Part shown: positions 14,008 through 22,620 of the stretch, piece after piece | Layout of the letters: each line of letters opens with the position of its first letter | How positions within the stretch are numbered: position 1 is the stretch's first letter | Source: a virus | IMG/VR virus record: IMGVR_UViG_3300031884_000137 | Coordinates: 1 to 24,173 of that record | Reading direction: 5' to 3' (one strand) | DNA: 24,173 nt | Program-made: the position numbers and the translations under genes | Notes under the pieces: model-generated | Database searches by the model: none | What the model saw: only the letters and a program-made list of their open reading frames with translations | What the model was told of the DNA's origin: nothing

Positions 14008-14235
14008 ATGGCAATAGTAGTAACAGAAGAAGAGTATGTGCAGTGGAGAGATAGTAGGGTTACAAGGGCTTTTATGTTTGCCCTTAAACAAGATAGAGAA
14101 TGGTTAAAGGAAATGTTGTTGGCAGGTACTGAAGATGATGCTGGTCTTCGTGGACGTGCAGCAGCAGTAACTCAAATCCTAAATCTAACCTACGAAGAGT
14201 TAATGGAATCAATTAAGGAAGCCAGAGATGTCTAA
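14008..14235 (+). CDS. Small protein between portal and co-chaperonin, 75 residues
   Basis: Helical protein (MAIVVTEEEYVQWRDSRVTR...LTYEELMESIKEARD) preceded by a full AAGGAGG. Position in the head operon suggests a role in assembly, but no family is recognised. It overlaps the co-chaperonin start by 8 bases. A short protein at this position is common in phages with similar portal and capsid genes. Confidence 0.75.
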   Translation: MAIVVTEEEYVQWRDSRVTRAFMFALKQDREWLKEMLLAGTEDDAGLRGRAAAVTQILNLTYEELMESIKEARDV

Positions 14236-14569
14236 TGTATCGGGAATTAACCCAGTATTTGATAGGCTCTTGATTCAACCGATGGAAGTAACCGAAAAGA
14301 CCGATTGGGGTTTTCAGTTATCTACAGAGGAAACATCAGAGCGTGAACAGTTAGCTAACACAACAGGTATCATCATTGCCCTAGGCGAAGAAGTCCCTGA
14401 AGGTGTCGTAGCAGTAGGCGATAAAGTAGTTTATGCCAAGTATGCAGGTTTAATGTATACAGGTAAAGACGGACGTGATTATCGCATGGTGAATTACGAT
14501 AACTTAGTAGCTAAATTAGACGCAGACGTGGACTTAGTAGATCCGCATTTAAAAAAAGGAATTAAGTAA
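14228..14569 (+). CDS. GroES-like co-chaperonin
   Basis: 113 residues. Cpn10 fold: NPVFDRLLIQPMEVTEKTDW at the N-terminus (GroES begins similarly with a ...PLHDRVIVKR strand), a mobile-loop region (about residues 25-45, GFQLSTEETSEREQL), then TGIIIALGEEVPEG...VAVGDKVVYAKYAG and a C-terminal DYRMVNYDNLVAKL that matches the ...EEYLIMRESDILAIV-type end of GroES. It would cap host GroEL to fold the capsid protein, as T4 gp31 does. Located between portal and scaffold genes, which fits. The canonical hydrophobic mobile-loop tripeptide is not clear, so specificity for GroEL should be tested. Confidence 0.85.
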   Translation: MSNVSGINPVFDRLLIQPMEVTEKTDWGFQLSTEETSEREQLANTTGIIIALGEEVPEGVVAVGDKVVYAKYAGLMYTGKDGRDYRMVNYDNLVAKLDADVDLVDPHLKKGIK

Positions 14570-18927: not shown

Positions 18928-19080
18928 ATGCAAACTAATCTAGACGCTAAGGAAATTCAACTAGTCGCTACCATCACTCGTGCTGACGGCACTGTGGAGG
19001 AACTTGGCGTTATAGATTACTGGCATGTTAATCCAATCAAGAGAATTATTTGGAGAATTAAAAAATGGCTACATTACTAG
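18928..19080 (+). CDS. Small conserved phage protein, 50 residues
   Basis: Frame MQTNLDAKEIQLVATITRAD...VIDYWHVNPIKRIIWRIKKWLHY. The ending D/S-YWH-x-NP-I-[KR]-R followed by a basic, aromatic helix is a pattern I recognise in short proteins of several unrelated phages, sometimes near tail-fibre genes. It starts two bases after the upstream stop without a clear ribosome-binding site and overlaps the next gene by 16 bases. The GGAG of the next gene lies in its last codons. Amphipathic C-terminus may contact membrane; unproven. Confidence 0.7.
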   Translation: MQTNLDAKEIQLVATITRADGTVEELGVIDYWHVNPIKRIIWRIKKWLHY

Positions 19081-19430
19081 TTAACACTGGTCGTGCCATC
19101 GTAACTAGCCGTATCAACGGTTCTGGTACAACACCAAGCTATGTTGCTTGGGGTACTGGTGCTGGTACGACTTCTGCGACTGACACAACTTTGTTTACTG
19201 AAGTAACTCCTCGTGTTTCAGGCACATCTAGTCAAGTTACAACTTCTACAACCAATGATACCTTTCAAGTAGTAGGTACACAGACTGCAGCAACTGGTGA
19301 GACAATTACCAATGCTGGTTTGTTTGATGCTTCTACTTCTGGTAACTTGTTTGTTAAAGGTGACTTTACTGGTATTGCTTTGAATAGCGGTGACAGCATT
19401 CAGTTTACATTTAAAGTACAATTTAGTTAA
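19065..19430 (+). CDS. Fibre-associated beta protein, 121 residues
   Basis: Thr/Ser/Gly-rich protein (LFTEVTPRVSGTSSQVTTST...ITNAGLFDASTSGNLFVKGDFTGIALNSGDSIQFTFKVQF). I recognise this as a recurrent small protein encoded beside tail-fibre genes of environmental phages; its immunoglobulin-like strand pattern fits a fibre accessory or connector. Preceded by GGAG about nine bases upstream. Confidence 0.68.
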   Translation: MATLLVNTGRAIVTSRINGSGTTPSYVAWGTGAGTTSATDTTLFTEVTPRVSGTSSQVTTSTTNDTFQVVGTQTAATGETITNAGLFDASTSGNLFVKGDFTGIALNSGDSIQFTFKVQFS

Positions 19431-19443
19431 TAAATAGGATATT

Positions 19444-21045
19444 ATGGCTTTCGTTCTAGCGGATCGGGTAAAAGAAACTACAACTTCTCCTGGTACAGGC
19501 ACAGCTACCTTAAATGGTGCTGCGTCTGGTTATCAATCCTTTTCTGCTGGAATTGGAGCCAACAATACTACGTATTACACCATAGCTGACCAATCAGGTA
19601 CTAACTGGGAAGTTGGTTATGGAACTATCGGGGCAGGCGGTACAACTCTTGCGAGAACTACCGTCCTAGCTTCCTCTAATTCAGGATCACTGGTAAATTT
19701 TTCCAGTGGTACACAAGATGTATGGTGTGACTATGCAGCTAAAAAGGCTGCCATTCAAGACTCACTAGGAACAACAACTGTTCCACAATTAGCAACAAAC
19801 TCTACGACAAGCACAACTCCTGTGTTATCTTTTAATGCGTCTAATTCAAACTACGCAGCAGGTGCATCGGTATCTGGAAGTTATTTACAAACTTTGTTGC
19901 AAAACAAATCAGGCACTGCAGGAGCCTCTACCAACTACGTACTAAGTAATGACTTAGGCACGGACTCATCTTATTATGGTGAGTTTGGTATGAACTCTTC
20001 TGTATATAGTTCAGGAACTCCTTCTGATTTTTATAGTATTAATAACGGTGTTTATTTCTCAGGACATGACGGTGATATTACTGTAGGTTCTGGTAATGGT
20101 TATAAATATTACATGGCTTGGGGCACTACAGGTAACAATGCCCACGTTATTAACGCTTCAGGTGCTCTTGGTTTATCTACCAACTTAGGCACTACTCCTG
20201 CTCTTAGCGGTACAACAGGCTATGGTACTTCTGGTCAAGTATTAACTAGTCAGGGAAGCTCTGCTGCTCCTATTTGGACAACACCTGCTACTGGTACAGT
20301 AACATCCGTAACAGGTAATGCTCCTGTTGTTTCTTCAGGCGGTACAACTCCTGCAATTAGCATGGCTGCAGCTACCACTTCTGTAAACGGTTATTTAACC
20401 TCTACAGATTGGAACACATTTAATAATAAATCTCCTGCAGCAGGCTCTTCTAGTATTACTACTACAGGTACAGTTACTTCAGGCACATGGTCTGCTTCTT
20501 TTGGTGCGGTAAGTGGTGCAAACTTAACTTCTTTAAACGGTTCTAATATTTCTAGCGGTACTGTAGCTGCTGCTCGTTTAGGTTCAGGAACTCCTTCAAG
20601 CTCTAACTATTTACGTGGTGACGGTACATGGTCTACCGTATCAGCTTCTCCTGCAGGCTCTAACACACAAGTACAATATAACTCTTCAGGCTCTTTTGCT
20701 GGCTCTGCTAACTTTACATTTGACGGTACTAACGTTCTTGTAGCAGGTACTGTATCAGGTGGTTCTGATGAGAGACTCAAAAAGAACTGGCGTAGCGTAG
20801 TATCTAACTTTATTGAGAAGTTATCTAAAGTTAAAGCAGGTATCTTTGATCGTACCGATCTAGAACTTACTCAGCCTGGTGTGTCTGCTCAGTCATTAAG
20901 AGAAGTATTACCAGAGGCCGTTCTTGAAGACGAGAATGGTATGTTATCTGTTAACTATGGCGGTGCAGCATTGTTGTCTGTAATTGAACTAGCTAAGGAA
21001 GTAGTTGCTTTACGTGCTGAAATCGAAGCTTTAAAGGCTAAATAA
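19444..21045 (+). CDS. Tail fibre with C-terminal S74 intramolecular chaperone
   Basis: 533 residues. N-terminal attachment domain (MAFVLADRVKETTTSPGTGT...GGTTLARTTVLASSNSGSLV, about 1-103), a Gly/Ser/Thr/Asn-rich shaft with repeated short elements (TGTVTSVTGNAPVVSSGGTTP, STDWNTFNNK, LGSGTPSSSNYLRGDGTW, residues about 260-410), and a C-terminal 93-residue peptidase S74 domain beginning SDERLKKNW (S441 the expected autocleavage serine) and ending in a helix LAKEVVALRAEIEALKAK that trimerises. The chaperone is normally removed after fibre folding. Host-recognition role is well supported by family. Start preceded by AGGAT. Confidence 0.9.
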   Translation: MAFVLADRVKETTTSPGTGTATLNGAASGYQSFSAGIGANNTTYYTIADQSGTNWEVGYGTIGAGGTTLARTTVLASSNSGSLVNFSSGTQDVWCDYAAKKAAIQDSLGTTTVPQLATNSTTSTTPVLSFNASNSNYAAGASVSGSYLQTLLQNKSGTAGASTNYVLSNDLGTDSSYYGEFGMNSSVYSSGTPSDFYSINNGVYFSGHDGDITVGSGNGYKYYMAWGTTGNNAHVINASGALGLSTNLGTTPALSGTTGYGTSGQVLTSQGSSAAPIWTTPATGTVTSVTGNAPVVSSGGTTPAISMAAATTSVNGYLTSTDWNTFNNKSPAAGSSSITTTGTVTSGTWSASFGAVSGANLTSLNGSNISSGTVAAARLGSGTPSSSNYLRGDGTWSTVSASPAGSNTQVQYNSSGSFAGSANFTFDGTNVLVAGTVSGGSDERLKKNWRSVVSNFIEKLSKVKAGIFDRTDLELTQPGVSAQSLREVLPEAVLEDENGMLSVNYGGAALLSVIELAKEVVALRAEIEALKAK

Positions 21046-22313
21046 TGTTCGGACGATATCCGAATTCTGGTGCTCCTTTTGCAGGATCATCAATACAAAA
21101 CTTAGCAAAAGCATTAACTGTTTCTGTAACAGCTACTATTAGTCTTTTAGCGACTAAAGTACAACAAAAAGCATTAACTATTAGTTCTACAGCTACTGTA
21201 AATATTGTAAAACAAATTAGTAAAATACTTAGTGTATTATCAAGTTCTGTAATTAGTATTGTAAAGTTTGTATCTAAGTTTATTAGTGTATTGTCAAGTT
21301 CTACAAGCAGTATTGTAAAGTCTGTTACACATAGTTTAAATGTACTAAGTACTGCAATAGTTTCTTTAGTTCGTTTACCTATTAAGCTATTGGCAGTAAC
21401 TTCTACTAGTACTGTAACTTATATCAGAGCTATTAATAAAATAATGGCTACTATTACAGACACAGTAATCGTGGTATTAACAGATATTGCACTGCATTTA
21501 GTTGCTTTTTCAGTTACTGTGACAGGGTCTCCAGTCATTAAAAAAGCTATTAGTGTCACTAAAACAATATCTAGCACAAGCACAGTAGCTTTAGTTAAAT
21601 TAATTGGTATTATTAAAAGTGTACTTTCTACTGCTACAGTAAGCATACTTAAAGGTACTTCTAAACTAAAAACATTATCAGTAAGCGTTACAGGGACTGT
21701 AAGTTTACTTAAAACTAGATTAGTTACTTTATTTGTCTTTATTAGCGGTACTCCTTTGTATGCTCAATTAAGTGGCATAGTAAACGATGCAATAGTTAAC
21801 TTAGAGACTATTAACGGTAACATCTCAGGCTATGCTAATGCCTATTACTTGACCCTACAAAAGCAAGTAAACAAAGTTATGACTTTATCTGAGACTGTTA
21901 TAGCTAGTTTAAGCAAAGCTAGAAACATTGTTTTAACTGTTTTAAGTACTGAAGTTGTGAGCCTTAAAAAGCAGTTAAATAAGATTTTAAGTATTGCTGA
22001 AGTAACTGTAGATACTTTAATAACTATCGGTCAGCATATACAGTTATTAGTAGTTAGCGTTACTGCTATTGTAAGCTTAAGAAAGTTACCTAATAAGTTG
22101 CTTTTTGTAGCAAGTCATGGTATAATAAGCCTGTTCAAGTTACAGATTAAAACTTTAACAGTCTTAGTAACTGGCTTTACTAGCTTGATAGCTCAGGTTG
22201 CTCCCATATTTGGTGCAATCTCCAGTAACGTGTATTATGCTATACAGCGAATCCGCAGTATAGATTTGGTTAAAATTAGGACTATTTTCTTGGACAAAAA
22301 TAATGGCAAATAG
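21045..22313 (+). CDS. Hydrophobic 18-residue repeat protein, 422 residues
   Basis: No known domain recognised. After a 20-residue N-terminus, about 17 units of mostly 18 (some 19-20) residues follow the pattern K-x-L-S-V-x-S-[ST]-x-x-V-S-[IL]-V-[KR], for example KILSVLSSSVISIVKFVS and KFISVLSSSTSSIVKSVT. The run is interrupted near residues 222-270 by a non-repeat segment (YAQLSGIVNDAIVNLETING) and resumes. Alternating hydrophobic/Ser-Thr residues argue for stacked beta strands (solenoid or trimeric shaft) rather than membrane helices. Start overlaps the fibre gene stop (TAATG); stop overlaps the next gene by 11 bases. Probably a virion or fibre component by position; similar repeats occur in other environmental phages. 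Confidence 0.75.
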   Translation: MFGRYPNSGAPFAGSSIQNLAKALTVSVTATISLLATKVQQKALTISSTATVNIVKQISKILSVLSSSVISIVKFVSKFISVLSSSTSSIVKSVTHSLNVLSTAIVSLVRLPIKLLAVTSTSTVTYIRAINKIMATITDTVIVVLTDIALHLVAFSVTVTGSPVIKKAISVTKTISSTSTVALVKLIGIIKSVLSTATVSILKGTSKLKTLSVSVTGTVSLLKTRLVTLFVFISGTPLYAQLSGIVNDAIVNLETINGNISGYANAYYLTLQKQVNKVMTLSETVIASLSKARNIVLTVLSTEVVSLKKQLNKILSIAEVTVDTLITIGQHIQLLVVSVTAIVSLRKLPNKLLFVASHGIISLFKLQIKTLTVLVTGFTSLIAQVAPIFGAISSNVYYAIQRIRSIDLVKIRTIFLDKNNGK

Positions 22314-22620
22314 CTTTACATATAAGATAACTAGTGAAAACGAGTTATTTACATTTAACTATAGTCAAGTATTAGACCCTGCAGAGACTATCTCTTCTGC
22401 TACATGTACTGCTATTACCCTTAACGGTGTAGACCCTAACCCTTCAGCGATCCTTGTAGGCTCTCCTGTGATTAGCGGTGCTAATGTGTCTCAACGTGTC
22501 TATAACGGTTTAAATGAAGTAACGTATCGCTTAGAAATGACAGCAACAACTTCCTATGGTAACGTGTATACAGCCATCGGTGATTTACCTGTTTATACTG
22601 CAGATTCTAGCTTAATTTAA
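22303..22620 (+). CDS. Fibre-tail adaptor-like protein, 105 residues
   Basis: An immunoglobulin-like strand pattern with LDPAETISSATCTAITLNG, VISGANVSQRVYNGLNEVTY and RLEMTATTSYGNVYTAIGD, which resembles proteins annotated as phage fibre-tail adaptors (the pattern 'D-GETI-SA...G...V.YRL...A.TS.G....' is familiar to me). It would link fibre proteins to the tail. Starts inside the repeat-protein gene and is one base apart from the next gene. Confidence 0.62.
   Translation: MANSFTYKITSENELFTFNYSQVLDPAETISSATCTAITLNGVDPNPSAILVGSPVISGANVSQRVYNGLNEVTYRLEMTATTSYGNVYTAIGDLPVYTADSSLI

Follow-up and report, generated by a model that had tools for sequence, protein, structure and literature searches.

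A family of 18- to 20-residue repeat proteins encoded between phage bead and collar-adaptor homologues: a likely backbone of a beaded neck fibre

Results

The repeat gene and its 422-residue product

We analysed a 24,173-nt stretch of viral DNA (the window; IMG/VR record IMGVR_UViG_3300031884_000137, positions 1 to 24,173), whose minus strand carries a replication module and whose plus strand carries a head-tail module. The plus-strand genes run from the large terminase through an SU10-type portal (PF23899), a GroES-like protein and the major head protein to a gp80-like bead, and continue with an S74 fibre, the repeat gene, a gp77-like adaptor and more fibre genes. The GroES-like co-chaperonin (PF00166) is encoded at 14228–14569, between the portal and head genes.

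The gp80-like bead gene (19065–19430, plus strand) encodes 121 aa and matches PF23140 (E = 4.7e-7). Profile comparison relates its product to the gp80 family of the Ralstonia podophage GP4 (6e-7), and it also matches, weakly, PHROG 240, which carries the label ‘head protein’. This neighbour, the proposed partner of the repeat protein, had gone unmentioned in the preliminary description, which did correctly name the two adjoining genes. Immediately upstream of the repeat gene is an S74-chaperone fibre or adhesin gene (19444–21045, plus strand; Peptidase_S74, PF13884, E = 2.5e-6), which is the module's variable component, and downstream lies a 105-aa gp77-like fibre-tail, or collar, adaptor (22303–22620, plus strand; PF23148, E = 3.2e-8), whose homology to the GP4 gp77 family was recovered by profile comparison (4e-6).

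The repeat gene itself (21045–22313, plus strand) has the 422 codons first ascribed to it, for a product of 422 aa. Its start ATG shares one base with the S74 stop codon (TAATG) and its 3′ end overlaps the gp77-like gene by 11 nt; these overlaps suggest translational coupling. Ser, Val, Leu, Ile, Thr and Lys are abundant in the protein, whose self-similarity is greatest at offset 18 (z = 10.7), with a further peak at 36 (z = 5.2), compared to a top z of 3.7 at any offset among 200 composition-preserving shuffles, so that the claimed unit length of mainly 18 holds. An iterated 12-column repeat profile located 16 units (shuffled copies: mean 0.95, maximum 4), and a 17th, degenerate copy was found within a conserved central motif; the earlier estimate of about 17 units was therefore right. 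The consensus, averaged over 82 period-18 units, is K-T-L-S-V-L-S-T-S-T-V-S-I-I-K-x-I-x. We found no tandem repeat in the gene at the DNA level, indicating that the units are old and diverged, and the protein matched no family in the Pfam and PHROG libraries.

All parts of the protein are encoded on the plus strand. An N-terminal leader (MFGRYPNSGAPFAG...; residues 1–21, 21045–21107) precedes the first repeat block (residues 22–131, 21108–21437), whose six units start at residues 22, 42, 60, 78, 96 and 114; the leaders of relatives begin with MFG... or MALN/MAIN..xxxNG. The central motif, KIMATIxxxxIVVLTxxxxHLVAFS (residues 132–163, 21438–21533), is followed by the second block (residues 164–226, 21534–21722) and by a non-repeat insert at about residues 227–276 (21723–21872), close to the 222–270 assigned to it before. 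Most relatives are without this insert, which is also present in L002, L003 and L004 and, distantly, in MW202796 (NISGAVNGALN...). The third block, again of six units (residues 277–386, 21873–22202), leads into a conserved, Arg-containing C-terminal tail, the proposed collar-binding end (residues 387–422, 22203–22310). Across the family, Arg pairs spaced 7–9 residues apart are enriched in these tails (19 observed, 7.2 expected).

A fixed three-gene module surrounds a fast-evolving protein

The module consists of the gp80-like bead, an optional adhesin or fibre, the repeat protein and the gp77-like collar adaptor. Scans of IMG/VR with three family members returned about 45 loci, nearly all with the genes in this order. 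To avoid circularity, we then retrieved 80 loci using the gp80-like protein alone. In every gp80-anchored metagenomic locus that reached the gp77-like gene (48 of 48, counting L072 and L073, where the repeat gene has a non-ATG start), a protein of 18- to 20-residue repeats was encoded between the two, in keeping with its assignment to the fibre apparatus. Four of the 48 carry a NUMOD3 (GIY-YIG-like) homing endonuclease gene between the repeat and gp77-like genes, at L098:6928–7536 and also in L100, L101 and L109; for these interrupted loci, the repeat protein was confirmed by reading its sequence in L098.

The repeat proteins of relatives are 227 to 525 residues long and share 30–72% identity with the window’s copy, while the bead proteins are 80–96% identical. 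These repeat proteins are a fast-evolving and previously unlabelled family that is present in many phages.

Repeat units are spaced by 18 or 20 residues and almost never by 19

The units of the window’s protein lie 18 or 20 residues apart, apart from a single 39-residue gap (18 + 21) at residues 114–153 and a 68-residue gap at residues 209–277 that holds the insert. Across 15 family members, spacings of 18 and 20 occurred 98 and 46 times and a spacing of 19 never occurred; across 20 non-redundant gp80-anchored members the counts were 132, 47 and 1 for 18, 20 and 19, respectively, in both cases from proteins that share ancestry. In L009, L033 and L034 a spacing of 20 holds for almost all N-terminal units, whereas those of the window are mostly 18 apart. 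The sole recurrent break of even spacing is a 39-residue step at the motif KIMATIxEMTIVVLTExxxHLVALS. Most members have a single copy of this motif, and L038, L097 and MW202796 have two.

With even spacing, successive units present the same face of a β-strand, and the linkers therefore look extended too; even steps would equally arise if both strands of a hairpin lengthened together. Insertions and deletions between relatives are clean multiples of 18 only in some close pairs (72 = 4 × 18 for L015 versus L018) and gap lengths over all pairs are noisy, which is why we relied on unit spacing in place of a multiple-of-18 rule. The averaged unit is pseudo-palindromic in the window’s family (r = 0.89, permutation p = 0.001), compatible either with a hairpin or arch or with a strand that crosses a bead dimer at its two-fold axis. 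As this symmetry reached no clear significance in the repeat proteins of other phages, we kept it out of the main evidence.

Isolated phages carry a repeat protein in the same slot

An unannotated repeat protein also lies between gp80-like and gp77-like proteins in phages BcepIL02 (gp55-56-57), JC1, Itty13, POI1126, PBC5, DSL-LC06 and Mae-JY04. The slot proteins have periods of about 20, or of 18/20/22, with z mostly from 3 to 10, compared to a top z of 4.3 at offsets 18–23 among 22 neighbouring proteins. BcepIL02 gp56 and the slot proteins of JC1, BcepMigl, Itty13, POI1126, PBC5 and DSL-LC06 resemble the window’s protein in their slot, their β-like repeats of period about 20, their N..xxN-G leader and their Arg-rich tail. 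Profile comparison of the window’s family against the Burkholderia slot proteins gave no significant similarity, and the equivalence of the two therefore rests on position, period and end motifs. An N-terminal motif regular expression matched 6 of 6 slot proteins, 9 of 17 members of the window’s family and 24 of 656 background proteins, counts that are supportive only, as the expression was devised after inspection. In the C-terminal tails of the slot proteins, Arg pairs 7–9 apart number 43 against 32.6 expected.

The module’s additional gene varies in kind and place: in BcepMigl a pectin-lyase-like spike separates rope from adaptor, while in the window the S74 fibre separates bead from rope. 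The mycobacteriophage Aegeus has a gp77-like gene with no obvious rope directly upstream. In Agrobacterium phage Atu_ph08, a probable rope gene (L057:1492–2003, plus strand) is unannotated, and an antisense open reading frame (AUZ95466.1) lies partly over the slot.

Natural fusions of adhesins with the proposed rope

The module of Alishewanella phage LSH1 (gp34-gp35-gp36) comprises an adhesin, a protein that forms a gp80-like dimer and a protein of Ig fold, all three of which are virion proteins by mass spectrometry; the C-terminal region of the adhesin gp34 is badly predicted and was stated to be unexplained (PMC13243795). A likely homologue of this adhesin, of 1843 aa, is encoded by the myophage Slicko01 (L145:2880–9100, 103–109 kb), and towards its C-terminus it repeats with a period of 20/40 residues (z = 11–13). 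The Slicko01 gp80-like gene lies two genes downstream (E = 6e-4; Pfam E = 0.0036, below threshold). The locus also encodes a 107-aa protein, placing the module in a myophage. LSH1 and Slicko01 are like the window in combining an adhesin and a poorly predicted β-repeat region with a gp80-like dimer and an Ig-fold protein; they differ in that the rope is fused to the adhesin, in gene order and in belonging to sipho- and myophages.

A second fusion is found at L137:764–4396, which encodes a fibre protein of 1210 aa that has a rope of about 25 units as its C-terminal part. The N-terminal part of this protein is fibre-like, with a YYWVGGTGTW start and a Gly-rich middle. Both fusions place the adhesin N-terminal of the rope, from which the polarity proposed below is drawn. 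The rope reading may also account for the uninterpreted region of LSH1 gp34.

Discussion

The repeat protein as the probable backbone of a beaded fibre

In each fibre I of phage GP4, an elongated rope protein reportedly strings together five dimers of gp80, and five such beaded fibres are said to be mounted on a 15-fold gp77 collar. The PDB entry 8jou contains 10 gp80 chains and three chains of a gp77 homologue, in keeping with a five-fold arrangement that has five bead dimers per fibre and a 15-fold collar, and Pfam describes gp80 and gp77 as fibre and collar parts in GP4. When we searched the PDB with phmmer and hmmsearch, using the window’s family and the slot proteins, we obtained no meaningful match and no rope-like chain.

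The window resembles GP4 fibre I in that homologues of its bead and its collar adaptor flank the repeat gene. It differs in that an S74 fibre gene separates the bead and rope genes, and in repeats of 18 residues, compared to 20–22 in GP4-related Burkholderia phages. We consider it likely that the repeat protein is the backbone, or rope, of a beaded fibre on the neck or tail collar of the phage. This reading has as its observed basis the repeats, spaced almost exclusively by 18 or 20, the fixed three-gene module, the natural adhesin-rope fusions and the fact that both partners have homologues among the fibre I and collar proteins of GP4. The best reading is that the window’s protein would work like the GP4 rope, as a putative member of the same class. 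The preliminary description had proposed a new kind of fibre shaft; the novelty part of this claim is weakened because a GP4-type beaded fibre already exists.

We infer the following arrangement. The gp80-like dimers would be the beads of the fibre, held at regular distances along the rope by binding to its 18- to 20-residue β repeats. The Arg-rich C-terminal tail would dock onto the gp77-like collar ring, while the N-terminus of the rope would be distal, adjoining or fused with an adhesin (in the window, the S74 fibre). The number of repeats probably sets the number of beads and the reach of the fibre.

Alternative explanations

The strongest alternative is that the repeats fold by themselves into a β-solenoid, with two strands per 18-residue coil, giving a rod that alone or as a trimer links adhesin to collar; we regard this as unlikely, though far from negligible. 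AlphaFold indeed models the repeat protein as all-β and solenoid-like, with strand-turn-strand coils of 18 residues whose pLDDT is 60–78 over residues 24–110. The top match of this model in a viral library is a similar phage protein without a name, and the pseudo-palindromic unit would fit a β-arch or hairpin. However, the mean pLDDT is 55, only two of five models exceed 50, and Foldseek found no PDB structure below E = 0.9 (best E = 0.95). Low-confidence β helices on such sequence have been described as possible hallucinations (PMC13243795). A solenoid also leaves the obligate gp80-like linkage and the 18/20-but-almost-never-19 spacing unexplained. The β-solenoid coil suggested at the outset thus recurs in the models, but their low confidence means that AlphaFold cannot settle the fold; the gp80-like protein, modelled from 16 near-identical sequences, reached a pLDDT of 43. 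The stand-alone trimeric shaft suggested with it is unlikely, as gene context and the comparison across phages favour a single backbone strand carrying gp80-like beads.

The same context and comparison argue against the other early suggestion, a virion surface layer, and against a capsid decoration protein. Hydrophobic, Ser/Thr-rich repeats and the bead gene’s weak match to a ‘head protein’ PHROG would suit such a role, but the gene keeps its place between those for bead and collar adaptor, the Pfam descriptions make GP4 gp80 and gp77 components of fibre and collar, and adhesin fusions occur, which together make it very improbable. We give as little credence to a chaperone or scaffold that assembles fibres and stays out of the virion. 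Mass spectrometry of JC1 detected gp53 and gp55 and not the slot protein gp54, as such a factor would have it, but BcepIL02 gp56 is annotated as virion-associated, as are gp55 and gp57, all three LSH1 module proteins are in virions, and the adhesin fusions are natural.

A membrane protein with many helices is the least credible reading: mean hydropathy is 0.76 and some 19-residue windows exceed 1.6, but Lys or Arg recurs about every 4 and 14 residues, charge-free stretches of at least 18 residues are almost absent, so that repeated helices of about 20 residues are ruled against, and an S/T/V/I-rich sequence with an all-strand prediction in a virion operon agrees with the β-prone protein first described.

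A possible general cassette

Beyond the backbone role in the window, a broader proposal is plausible but tentative, and we would not rate it quite as high as an even chance. Rope, gp80 bead and gp77/Ig adaptor may form a general beaded-fibre cassette that is independent of tail type, in which a rope invisible to databases would act as a ruler (roughly 8 to 27 units) for bead number and adhesin reach. The bead dimer has a two-fold axis, to which the pseudo-palindromic unit K-x-L-S-V-x-S-T-S-x-V-S-I-x-K could correspond. If the ruler is real, the number of 18- or 20-residue units would fix the bead count and thus the distance of the adhesin from the neck. The proposal would offer a function for an entire group of unannotated and seemingly featureless repeat proteins encoded beside gp80-like genes in tailed phages, and a possible answer to the published puzzle of LSH1 gp34 (PMC13243795). 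It also carries a caution, as low-confidence β-helix predictions on such sequences may represent ropes that fold only on their partner.

Two known systems offer further comparisons. The Anabaena myophage A-1(L) has a 15-fold neck ring bearing five neck fibres that are chains of beads, like the fibre proposed here, but these are built of trimeric beads plus terminal adaptors (gp81, gp82 and gp80 at about 14:1:1) and no rope is described; the gp80 of A-1(L) has the name of GP4 gp80 by coincidence only. The triple β-spiral shaft of the adenovirus type is a homotrimer of 15-residue repeats with Gly/Pro turns. The window’s protein is like this shaft in placing short β repeats in a viral fibre, and unlike it in that the repeat consensus lacks a conserved Gly/Pro turn.
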